Shown here: positions 1-41,251 of the stretch, piece after piece
How positions within the stretch are numbered: position 1 is the stretch's first letter
Layout of the letters: each line of letters begins with the position of its first letter
Virus record (IMG/VR): IMGVR_UViG_3300046787_000114
Location: 1 to 41,251 of that record
DNA length: 41,251 bases
Origin: a virus
Strand: one strand, 5' to 3'
Notes under the pieces: model-generated
Told to the model about the DNA's origin: nothing
Seen by the model: only the letters and a program-made list of their open reading frames with translations
Databases searched by the model: none
Translations under genes and position numbers: made by a program

Positions 1-127
1 TTGTTCTTGCCAGTAAAGTGTGGCTTAAGAGAGCAGCCATACTGGGCAAGCCATTGAATCAAGTCATCATCTAGGGCATAGCCCTTCTGATGAGCGTTAA
101 TCTCAACGCGAAACTCTTGAGGTCGGT
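1..127. repeat. terminal direct repeat, left copy (assembly overlap)
   Basis: These 127 bases are identical to the last 127 bases of the window, from TTGTTCTTGCC to CTTGAGGTCGGT. The repeat lies inside the terminase frame. Collapsing one copy gives one uninterrupted reading frame, so the sequence closes into a circle of 41,124 bp. The length equals a standard assembler k-mer, which favours an assembly overlap over a biological terminal repeat. Confidence 0.95.
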
Positions 128-1541
128 ACTTAGCAACCAACTCTTCAATCGTATTACGAATCTTCTGTGGCGTAGGTTCGCTCATGTTAATGCAATCAAG
201 CACGTAGATACGACCATCAAGGGCGTTGTAGTTAATTACCACAAAGGCTGAGTTACCAGTCATAGCAGGGTCAAAACCAATGATGGTATAACCACGTACT
301 TTTGCTGGATGCCCAGGTAGTTCTGGGTTTAGTACTCCACGCTTACGCGCTCCCTTGATACAACCTTGAACCAGCGGAGCGGGGAACGTTGAGTCCTCCG
401 CTATATCTTCCTGCTGGTACACCAGCGCCCAGGTAGAGGCGGTAACTTCACCGCGACGTTTATTTAGCGCTGGCCCGTCCCACTTAGGATACAAACCATC
501 TTCATCAACATCTTCCTCATCGTCGCCATCCCAAGGGATATTAGACTTAGGCCAGAGAGTCACCCAGTCTTTAGGCTTGTCTCCGTATTCAAGAACTGCA
601 GGCATAGCCATGTAGGTAAAGGGGCACTTGCCACTTGACCAGTACTTAGGCTCTCGTAGTTCTTTATAGAAATCTGTAGCGGCAATACGTGTGCCTACAA
701 TCAGCAACTTGCCGTTTTTACCCAGACGAGTGATAACTTCCTTCTGCAGCCAGTTAATCTGCTTCTCATACTCATGGGCGTTAGCCGTAGTAATGCAGTC
801 GTCTAGGATAATCAAGTCGGCGCGAGCGCCGTAAATCTGACCACCCATACCAAGGGCTTGGATAGTTGGGTCTTTCTCAGATGAATCACGCGCATCGCCA
901 CCAAGATAGACGGTGTCTACTTTCCAGGTATCTGCGTCATTTTTCCATCCGCCCTCAGGACCGAATGCATTCTGCATTTTCTGATAGCGCGGATGCGACA
1001 ACCTGTTTTTAATCGAATACACGAACTCGCGTGCTTTGTTCAACGTCTTAGAGACCACGATGATGCGGACGTTAGGGTTGATGGCGATACGGTAGGTTGA
1101 ATAGTTCACCGTTACTACGGTGGACTTAGCATGCTCAGGAGGGACGTTGACCAACATACGGGTCTCGTCTACCTTCTCATAGACCATGCTTGGGTGCAAC
1201 CAACTAGGGTCGCGCCCTTCAATCAAATCAATCCAGTCCTGATGGTGTGGGAACACCTTTGAGTCCAGGTACATCTCAGAGAACTGAGCAAATGAAATCT
1301 CTTCCTTGGGGATACCAAGGGCAACAAGGGAATTGGACTTAGAGTCTAACTTAGCCTGTTCAAGTTTACGGGCAAAGTCTGGGTCTCGGTAAATCCAGAT
1401 GCGGGCGGTATCGGGCTTAGAGCCAACCTTGGTCATGGCGTTTGCCAGACTCATACCCTCTGCAACCAGTAGGAGCACCTGCTCCTTAGCCTCGTTGCTC
1501 TTAGCCGTCTTGGGGTTAGTCGCCCCCTTTTCAAATGTCAT
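1..1541 (-). CDS. terL: terminase large subunit, N-terminal 513 codons (continues at 41124)
   Basis: ATPase and nuclease motor that packages DNA into the procapsid. The frame starts at ATG 1541-1539 and leaves the window at base 1. It continues in frame at 41124 and ends at 40776, giving 629 residues in total. Residues 1-70 are a helix-turn-helix of the kind found in small terminase subunits (SLANAMTKVGSKPDTARIWI, then DPDFARKL). The Walker A motif is VPPEHAKST near residues 133-141, Walker B is LIILDDC at 243-249, and the coupling motif VGTR is near 282-285. The nuclease domain begins with IIGFDPAM near residue 420, whose Asp is a likely metal ligand. No separate small terminase gene is visible, so the N-terminal segment may supply DNA recognition. 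It is the first protein gene of the minus-strand unit, 83 nt after the tRNA. Confidence 0.93.
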   Translation of the reverse strand, partial: MTFEKGATNPKTAKSNEAKEQVLLLVAEGMSLANAMTKVGSKPDTARIWIYRDPDFARKLEQAKLDSKSNSLVALGIPKEEISFAQFSEMYLDSKVFPHHQDWIDLIEGRDPSWLHPSMVYEKVDETRMLVNVPPEHAKSTVVTVNYSTYRIAINPNVRIIVVSKTLNKAREFVYSIKNRLSHPRYQKMQNAFGPEGGWKNDADTWKVDTVYLGGDARDSSEKDPTIQALGMGGQIYGARADLIILDDCITTANAHEYEKQINWLQKEVITRLGKNGKLLIVGTRIAATDFYKELREPKYWSSGKCPFTYMAMPAVLEYGDKPKDWVTLWPKSNIPWDGDDEEDVDEDGLYPKWDGPALNKRRGEVTASTWALVYQQEDIAEDSTFPAPLVQGCIKGARKRGVLNPELPGHPAKVRGYTIIGFDPAMTGNSAFVVINYNALDGRIYVLDCINMSEPTPQKIRNTIEELVAKYRPQEFRVEINAHQKGYALDDDLIQWLAQYGCSLKPHFTGKN

Positions 1542-1624: not shown

Positions 1625-1695
1625 CAGACCCCCAAGGACTCGAACCTTGACAAACCGCTTTGGAGACGGTTGTGCTGCCATTACACTAGGGACCT
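1625..1695 (-). tRNA. tRNA-Trp (anticodon CCA)
   Basis: A 71-nt cloverleaf can be folded by hand on the minus strand. The acceptor stem is AGGTCCC with GGGGTCT (two G-T wobbles). The D-arm is GTGT/GCAC, the anticodon stem ACCGT/GCGGT encloses the loop CTCCAAA with anticodon CCA, the variable loop has 4 nt, and the T-arm is CAAGG-TTCGAGT-CCTTG. The discriminator base is G, and the 3' CCA is not encoded, so the host must add it. It lies between the putative late promoter and terL and is presumably co-transcribed with the late genes. It could raise decoding of UGG codons or replace a host tRNA damaged during infection; both are inference. Confidence 0.9.
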
Positions 1696-2144: not shown

Positions 2145-2281
2145 GCCTATGCTATAGGCTACCCCAATACAGTGGGGGATTGCATCCCCTAAACCCCTGC
2201 AGTCTGCCGATGAGTCATGCAGGCTGTCTTGCGAGCGACCACGCTATGCGGCGTGTCATAGCCACGCCCGCCGCGTTGCTC
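2145..2281. other. cluster of four inverted repeats
   Basis: Four hairpins follow each other. GCCTAT/ATAGGC at 2145-2159 has a 3-nt loop. GGGGAT/ATCCCC at 2175-2189 also has a 3-nt loop. CAGTCTGC/GCAGGCTG at 2200-2226 has one wobble. GAGCGAC/GTTGCTC (2233-2281) encloses GCTATG/CATAGC. The last has an outer and an inner helix with a long 3' bulge, loosely like the three elements further right. Confidence 0.55.
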
Positions 2282-2350: not shown

Positions 2351-2393
2351 GTCAGACAAGAAGCCAAACCATTGGCTTCTAAGACTGTCTGAC
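2351..2393. ncRNA. structured element H1: two stacked helices with 3' AAG bulge
   Basis: The outer helix is GTCAGACA (2351-2358) with TGTCTGAC (2386-2393). It continues directly on the 5' side into the inner helix AGAAGCCAA (2359-2367) with TTGGCTTCT (2372-2380), closed by the 4-nt loop ACCA. The only unpaired internal bases are AAGAC (2381-2385) on the 3' side. H2 and H3 have the same plan with different bases. Whether it is a free RNA, a leader element or a DNA cruciform site is unknown. Confidence 0.6.
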
Positions 2394-2401
2394 GCTTGAT
2401 G

Positions 2402-2450
2402 ATAACGATTTGGATAACAATCATAAAGCCGATTGTTACCAAATAGTTAT
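2402..2450. promoter_or_regulatory. long hairpin, 19 paired positions
   Basis: ATAAC, ATTTGG and TAACAATC (2402-2422) pair with GATTGTTA, CCAAAT and GTTAT (2431-2450) around an 8-nt loop, interrupted by one mismatch and one single-base bulge. It does not share the AAG-bulge plan of H1-H3. Its 3' arm begins the second copy of the 19-nt repeat. Confidence 0.65.
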
Positions 2451-2460
2451 AATCTGCGAC
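2442..2460 (+). repeat. 19-nt direct repeat, copy 2
   Basis: AATAGTTATAATCTGCGAC is the second copy of the repeat at 2027-2045, with one mismatch. It again lies at the 3' edge of a hairpin. Confidence 0.75.
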
Positions 2461-2522
2461 CATTGCCAAGCCGATTACCCTGTTCTATAGTCAAGCGTTA
2501 CTATGGGAACACAGAAGGGGAA

Positions 2523-2563
2523 CGACAGCCTGAGCCTGCCAGCAGGCTCAAAGCGGGCTGTCG
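2523..2563. ncRNA. structured element H2: same plan as H1
   Basis: The outer helix is CGACAGCC (2523-2530) with GGCTGTCG (2556-2563). The inner helix is TGAGCCTG (2531-2538) with CAGGCTCA (2543-2550), around the 4-nt loop CCAG. A 3' bulge AAGCG lies at 2551-2555. The helix sequences differ from H1 and H3, but the lengths, the continuous 5' strand, the tetraloop size and the AAG start of the bulge are retained. Confidence 0.65.
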
Positions 2564-2566
2564 TAC

Positions 2567-2606
2567 GTTAGCCTGAATCCGTAATCGGATTCAAAGCATG
2601 GCTAAC
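2567..2606. ncRNA. structured element H3: same plan as H1
   Basis: The outer helix is GTTAGCC (2567-2573) with GGCTAAC (2600-2606). The inner helix is TGAATCCG (2574-2581) with CGGATTCA (2586-2593), around the loop TAAT. A 3' bulge AAGCAT lies at 2594-2599. It begins only three bases after H2, so the two form a tandem pair. Confidence 0.65.
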
Positions 2607-2637: not shown

Positions 2638-2669
2638 TCTAACCCCCCCTTCTTCTCGATTCGATAATG

Positions 2670-2692
2670 CTATCTGATATCGCATCAGGTAG
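2670..2692 (+). promoter_or_regulatory. leader hairpin just upstream of the first early ribosome site
   Basis: CTATCTGAT (2670-2678) pairs with ATCAGGTAG (2684-2692), 9 bp with one wobble and a 5-nt loop. It ends about 8 bases before the AAAGGAGA ribosome site of the gene at 2714. It could protect the 5' end of the early mRNA or tune its translation. Confidence 0.5.
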
Positions 2693-2713
2693 TAACTACA
2701 AAGGAGAAAGACA

Positions 2714-3229
2714 ATGACCACTGTAACTGATTATGCACAGGACGGACTATCCCTCGCTAACATATGTCCAATGTGTATCGAGCAGGAGCAACTATGCGTA
2801 GACTGCGTAGACACAGCAGACGCACGACTAACAGATAAGGCTTACGCCTTAGTAGACGAAGGCAACACCCAGTACCGCAGAACTTGGTCACGCCAAGATG
2901 ACCAGCCTAGCGGTTCAGACTGGATTGGTTCCCAAACCTACGTCCGCCCACAGGGTTGGATAGTTAAGATGACAGAAATATGGAGCGATGAGTGCAAATT
3001 GGTGGAGTTGTCGGTCAAGTTCCTTGAGACCGACGAACCACTGGTACGTCATGAGTTTCTGCCACCTATCACCAACCTACAGGACGGTGGTGTGTATGAG
3101 GAACTATGGGAACTTGACGACCAGCGCCAAGCCTCACGCGAGCGTGAGTGTGGATACTGCCACCTCATGACACAGCGAATCTTTGCGACTTGCACATCAT
3201 GCGACAAACCAAGAAAGGTAGGTGAATAA
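2714..3229 (+). CDS. cysteine-rich zinc-binding protein, first early gene
   Basis: I do not recognise the family. The protein has 171 residues and two cysteine clusters that could each bind zinc. The N-terminal one is CPMCIEQEQLCVDC near residues 18-31. The C-terminal one is CGYCHLMTQRIFATCTSCDK near 146-165. The middle is acidic with several tryptophans. ATG 2714 is preceded by a strong AAAGGAGA site. It is the first gene after the structured region, so it may be among the first made. A role in taking over host transcription or metabolism is possible but not shown. Confidence 0.85.
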   Translation: MTTVTDYAQDGLSLANICPMCIEQEQLCVDCVDTADARLTDKAYALVDEGNTQYRRTWSRQDDQPSGSDWIGSQTYVRPQGWIVKMTEIWSDECKLVELSVKFLETDEPLVRHEFLPPITNLQDGGVYEELWELDDQRQASRERECGYCHLMTQRIFATCTSCDKPRKVGE

Positions 3230-40775: not shown

Positions 40776-41251
40776 TTATCCAAATTGCTCGTTCCACTGC
40801 TCTTGATATGCAGCGTCGAGGTTGACTGATTGACGTTTTGATAGTTGAGCACGTGTAGCCCAACGATTATCTTTATATCGGCTTGTGAAAGAAGCCGCTT
40901 GCATTAGTTCCTTAGCACGCAAAACGCCAAACCAGAGTGCCATAACGCAGTCGGTTTTGCCCTTAGTGTTTGGCTTCCAGGTCATCAACTGTTGGAGCAA
41001 GGCTTTCATGCCTTCAGAGCCTTCAGTAGATGGGAATTCGATAATGTTGTTATTCTGGAACTTATCATCACGCATAGTTCCGAATAGGCTTGACATAGAT
41101 GCTACGCCAAGGTTTGTGTCCCACTTGTTCTTGCCAGTAAAGTGTGGCTTAAGAGAGCAGCCATACTGGGCAAGCCATTGAATCAAGTCATCATCTAGGG
41201 CATAGCCCTTCTGATGAGCGTTAATCTCAACGCGAAACTCTTGAGGTCGGT
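40776..41251 (-). CDS. terL: terminase large subunit, C-terminal part (continues from position 1)
   Basis: This is the 3' end of the gene that starts at 1541. Reading from 41251 leftward, bases 41251-41125 are the second copy of the terminal repeat and 41124-40776 add the last 116 codons. The reading frame matches exactly (base 41186 equals base 62). The segment completes the nuclease domain (FRVEINAHQKGYALDDD, then MRDDKFQNNNIIEFPSTEGS and KGKTDCVMALWFGVLR). It ends with TAA 40778-40776, about 10 bases before the next gene. Confidence 0.93.
   Translation of the reverse strand, partial: RPQEFRVEINAHQKGYALDDDLIQWLAQYGCSLKPHFTGKNKWDTNLGVASMSSLFGTMRDDKFQNNNIIEFPSTEGSEGMKALLQQLMTWKPNTKGKTDCVMALWFGVLRAKELMQAASFTSRYKDNRWATRAQLSKRQSVNLDAAYQEQWNEQFG
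41125..41251. repeat. terminal direct repeat, right copy (assembly overlap)
   Basis: Identical to 1-127 over all 127 bases. See the left copy. Trimming one copy leaves a circle of 41,124 bp. Confidence 0.95.

Follow-up and report, generated by a model that had tools for sequence, protein, structure and literature searches.

Three hairpins sharing an AAG-type bulge belong to a larger conserved fold in front of the early operon of an environmental phage

We analyzed the virus record IMGVR_UViG_3300046787_000114 over its whole length of 41,251 bp (the window). Three hairpins of one plan, H1, H2 and H3, were found to belong to a larger folded leader of ~330 nt, spanning about 2330-2652, in front of the early operon of this freshwater, probably actinobacterial virus. 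Comparison with related sequences suggests that this leader is probably a previously unrecognised RNA control element that is read by a protein. We tentatively favor, with somewhat less than even confidence, a cis-acting leader of the early transcript, of which H1-H3 would be a part and whose AAGC hairpins would bind a trans factor, antitermination or early-transcript control being the likeliest role.

Hairpins and the fold of the leader

The left end of the record contains terL (3-1541, minus strand) and a tRNA gene (1625-1695, minus strand), which are divergent from the early operon starting with g1 (2714-3229, plus strand). The divergent interval between terL and g1 is 1.17 kb long and noncoding except for the tRNA, and H1, H2 and H3 are located in its second half. 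Downstream of g1, the operon encodes a RecB-like exonuclease, a DnaB-like helicase and a primase; a possible O-like initiator is likewise encoded in the early region. The g1 product (171 aa) has CxxC motifs at both ends, possibly zinc ribbons, and matched no family by sequence in Pfam, PHROGs or PDB; its predicted structure (mean pLDDT 62, pTM 0.25) was of a quality below that of use for a fold search. Among the relatives g1 is a conserved early protein, and it is a candidate partner of the leader. The tRNA between terL and the leader is probably tRNA-Trp, since it resembles phage genes annotated as such. The left end of the record truncates terL, and a startless open frame (40776-41249, minus strand) enters across the right end. 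This may mean that the genome is complete and circularly permuted, with the cut lying within terL.

H1 (2351-2393, plus strand) is composed of an outer helix of 8 bp, an inner helix of 9 bp, the loop ACCA and the 3' bulge AAGAC (2381-2385). The corresponding parts of H2 (2522-2564, plus strand) are 9 bp, 8 bp, CCAG and AAGCG (2551-2555), and those of H3 (2567-2606, plus strand) are 7 bp, 8 bp, TAAT and AAGCAT (2594-2599). Folding and a mechanical scan thus reproduced the common plan, architecture and coordinates given in the original prediction, except that H2 proved to be one pair longer on each side. The numbers of non-wobble pairs were 17, 17 and 15 for H1, H2 and H3, all within 256 bases, and these were the best three 3'-bulged hairpins of the window when both strands were scanned. 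When the whole 41-kb window was dinucleotide-shuffled 200 times, 21 hairpins in total reached 15 pairs and one reached 17 on both strands, and when the leader was shuffled 2000 times, 2 of the 2000 shuffles held even one hairpin of at least 15. The folding z-score of 2318-2665 was -9.7 on the plus strand, while 19 other sites of the window gave -4.0 or weaker. Both strands of the leader folded equally well; therefore, folding cannot tell RNA from DNA.

The helix sequences had been described as unrelated between the copies, but they are not wholly so. The 5' side of the bulge junction reads AG-C..GA and the 3' side UC-AAG in every copy, and H2 and H3 have in common, exactly or nearly so, CAGCCTGA...TCAAAGC.GGCTG. 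Relatives possess a single hairpin at this site, which suggests that H2 and H3 arose by an old tandem duplication, followed by divergence via compensatory changes.

The larger fold consists of two domains. The first is closed by a putative helix, P0, whose 5' strand GTTCCCA (2334-2340) pairs with TGGGAAC (2504-2510). The letters of P0 differ among three lineages and are complementary in each: GTTCCCA/TGGGAAC, GTTTCCA/TGGAAAC and GATTCTCA/TGAGAATC, the last being that of the contigs L184 and L187, in which Hb is kept and H1 is absent. The conserved TCTATAG..CTATG motif can pair in another way that partly overlaps P0, and this second pairing was the one chosen by RNAalifold. Inside P0, the helix P1, formed by CTTGGCAA (2343-2350) and TTGCCAAG (2463-2470), encloses H1 and a long hairpin, Hb (2398-2454), which has the loop ATAAAGCC (2423-2430) and whose lower part is that kept in L184 and L187. 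Between Hb and the 3' strand of P0, comparison of the relatives revealed the conserved motif TCTATAGTC..CTATG (2484-2504). The second domain is closed by AAGGGG (2515-2520) pairing with 2646-2651, and it encloses H2, H3 and H4; the hairpin H4 (CCTTTCCC-AAAAAC-GGGGAAAGG, 2615-2637) is conserved in the relatives and lacks a U-run after it. All of these elements are given on the plus strand.

An intrinsic terminator on the plus strand, i.e., a hairpin followed by a U-run, was found nowhere between the hairpins and g1 in the present clade. This, and the inclusion of the hairpins in one larger fold, speaks against the earlier suggestion of a tandem of discrete small RNAs. A separate branch (L180, L181, L183, L185, L189, L190 and L195) has a plus-strand intrinsic terminator, AAAACCCCCTAGAAATAGGGGGTTTTTTT, 140-720 nt before g1.

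Several other features were observed in the intergenic region. The block 1796-1936 is its most widely conserved part among the relatives; a minus-strand TTGACC-17-TATATA was seen there by eye, and in several relatives the block contains bulged hairpins with GAACTATT. A 23-nt direct repeat (91%) occurs at 2023-2045 and 2438-2460, and an upstream hairpin (2002-2036) and Hb have the 3' flank ATAGTTATARTCTGCGAC in common.

Covariation, relatives and the exposed AAAGC motif

The relatives were ~70 related IMG/VR contigs collected by g1 protein searches and DNA patterns. Five contigs carry H1 and one H3-like hairpin (L028, which is the same contig as L011; L029; L066; L137, which is nearly identical to L066 in the leader region; and L103). 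At the site of H2 and H3, these five have one AAGC hairpin, whose inner helix is longer and which is followed by H4, whereas H2 and H3 of the window are 2 nt apart. The first leader domain showed 87-92% nucleotide identity to relatives, compared with 71-80% for terL of the same relatives and 47-61% for its third codon positions. Exchange between phages may partly contribute to this high identity.

For the covariation analysis, the window and three other contigs supplied eight distinct sequences of H1 and H3, which were aligned. Two-sided compensatory changes were observed at 8 of 16 pairs and one-sided changes at none, and 99.2% of the cells were paired. None of 500 shuffles reached the observed score; the structure was drawn from the same eight sequences and was therefore favored in the sliding control, and the compensatory changes themselves are direct. 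A covariance model trained without H2 recovered H2 (E = 8e-4) and detected a distant copy in L176/L177 (E = 0.015). This copy, AATCGGTCA-AGGAATGCC-TACGT-GGCATTCCT-AAGAC-TGCCCGATT, has new helices and the same AAGAC bulge, and is located 177 nt before g1. The compensatory changes and the further copies bear out the proposal of selection on the shape, and they refute chance or an assembly artefact, which we regard as practically excluded given that the changes occur in independent contigs and that the shuffle controls agree. In the rest of the window, the stretch before the leftward operon included, the model gave no other significant copy.

A strict descriptor (outer helix, inner helix and an AAG[AC] bulge) added L017 (bulge AAGC, -320) and L022 (bulge AAGCGC, -155), and gave 0 matches in 156 shuffled leaders at a score of at least 13. 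At a score of at least 16, all matches were in plus-strand leaders 150-360 nt before g1, except for one related pair of matches in L009/L010, ~5 kb downstream of g1.

A second hairpin type, HU, with the loop GUC(N)AAAGCC and a stem whose letters vary, lies between terL and g1. In leaders selected by their protein, this sequence occurred 12 times on the plus strand and 0 times on the minus strand, and 11 of the 12 loops were flanked by at least 4 pairs, although pairing was not demanded by the search. A pattern scan found the hairpin in ~35 contigs that also have terL or g1 relatives; wherever both flanking genes were seen, it was between terL and g1 and on the strand of g1. The member in the window is degenerate (GGCGTG, loop TCATAGC, CACGCC; 2250-2268, plus strand).

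The motif is presented by the H2 and H3 bulges as UCAAAGC, by the H1 bulge of L103 as UUCAAAGCC, by the Hb loop as AUAAAGCC, and by HU as UC(U)AAAGC. AAAGC was present in the leaders 68 times on the plus strand versus 13 times on the minus strand, making it the most strand-biased among its common anagrams, and its unpaired fraction was 0.66 against a leader average of 0.38. Common to all of these is a single-stranded AAAGC of one orientation, displayed on a helix.

The prediction that no named family has this plan agreed with the Rfam 15 search of the window and 27 relatives, where nothing but tRNA exceeded the gathering thresholds. With relaxed thresholds, the best match below threshold was the freshwater-2 RNA, matching 2652-2716 (plus strand), over the ribosome-binding site of g1, with 19.6 bits versus a threshold of 49.9. 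A scan of viral sequences with the TCTATAG motif yielded no new members. Matches to the Hb pattern in genome collections were spread over unrelated bacteria, and the best of them, in an Actinomycetota MAG (L249), looks like chance and has no leader-like surroundings. Reading the bulge as a kink-turn was rejected by inspection, as tandem G-A is absent beside it, and palindromes of the IS200/IS605 REP type were set aside, as inspection of the flanks showed no conserved tetranucleotide.

Possible roles of the leader

The orientation of the leader and the lack of a plus-strand terminator before g1 in the clade lead us to infer that it is transcribed into early mRNA. The structured ~330 nt would thus form the 5' end of the rightward early transcript, where each AAGC hairpin would present single-stranded AAGC or AAGAC on the 3' side of its helix. 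HU, H1, Hb, H2 and H3 together could then offer several docking sites to a trans-acting factor, which may be host RNA polymerase with Nus-type machinery or a phage RNA-binding protein. The likeliest outcome would be cis control of the early operon via put-like processive antitermination, in which RNA polymerase reads through; alternatively, the early mRNA may be protected or regulated.

The nearest precedent for such a working is putL/putR of phage HK022, an early-transcript leader RNA of adjacent bulged stem-loops whose cis action on RNA polymerase reaches over long distances (PMC9378689). However, put has ~70 nt and two stem-loops and the present fold ~330 nt and up to five AAGC presenters; put sits in both early operons, whereas the present element has one location and the window search found no second-operon copy; and the host phyla are different. 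We therefore do not claim membership in the put class, in which antitermination goes through the zinc-binding domain of RNA polymerase beta'. Against the leader reading are the equal folding of both strands, the lack of a second copy before the leftward operon, and the absence of one-sided (G-U) changes in H1 and H3, which is unusual for RNA, here among eight sequences. The asymmetry of G-U versus A-C as a discriminator of RNA and DNA was given no weight, because the events are few and are biased by the derivation of the structure.

A single RNA that exposes one short single-stranded motif several times would also suit a trans-acting decoy or sponge, in which a host RNA-binding protein or nuclease would be titrated by the AAGC hairpins regardless of the downstream gene. 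CsrB/RsmZ RNAs, which titrate CsrA, likewise have many hairpins presenting one short single-stranded motif. Consistent with titration, the motif stays while the stem letters vary freely, and copy number and architecture differ between relatives. However, CsrB/RsmZ RNAs show GGA in their loops and are separate transcripts ending in an intrinsic terminator, while the recurrent exposed motif here is AAAGC; a terminator that would release a separate RNA is absent in the clade, and the gene that follows the element is always the same. Furthermore, when the hairpin model was searched against 201 genomes of one actinobacterial order, which may not be that of the host, only weak palindrome-like matches were obtained, and a terL search of the same genomes gave none. 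We consider titration unlikely, though a serious rival.

A DNA element is another serious rival, though rather unlikely in our judgement. Here, hairpins extruded on one strand would serve replication (an origin or single-strand priming) or packaging, and AAGC would be read in single-stranded DNA. Strictly Watson-Crick compensatory changes and the equal folding of both strands fit this reading, as do the primase, the DnaB-like helicase and the possible O-like initiator of the early region. If the record is circular, the leader also lies at a divergence point near the GC skew minimum, but the skew follows the coding strand and so cannot separate the two. Primosome assembly sites of the phiX174/pBR322 type are strand-specific hairpins with an exposed AAGC-containing motif. 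The core of PriA-type sites, AAGCGG, is found in H2 and some relatives; however, it is absent from H1 (AAGACT), H3 (AAGCAT) and HU. Moreover, the present hairpins are tied to an early-gene leader and its sense strand rather than to a known origin, and no iteron array was found within the intergenic region.

The leader sits directly upstream of the ribosome-binding site, so a plain structured 5' UTR, shielding the early mRNA or adjusting g1 translation while AAGC has no dedicated reader, was also weighed. It leaves the invariant AAG core and the strand-biased AAAGC amid changing helices unexplained, and we judge it improbable. Regarding the cis-acting leader that we favor, it is conceivable, though doubtful, that it represents a new class of phage leader RNA, widespread in phages of streamlined freshwater Actinobacteria, where a variable number of AAGC hairpins would serve as a docking platform on the nascent early transcript. 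If this class existed and worked without a phage protein, it would be, to our knowledge, the first put-like RNA antiterminator in actinophages.

Host and meaning for the phage family

By TerL, the nearest cultured phages are the Planktophila phages E7 and F5 (59% identity), which makes a 'Ca. Nanopelagicales' host likely. In the corresponding region of E7, neither the model nor the descriptor found an AAG-bulge hairpin. The phage family is probably abundant in lakes, and the broader family also contains culturable 'Ca. Planktophila' phages (PMC10202952). The motif and the covariation, together with these culturable phages, make it testable what reads the element. The leader, with its clear recognition motif, is a structured element not described before, and it illustrates that in environmental phages a noncoding leader can exceed terL in conservation.
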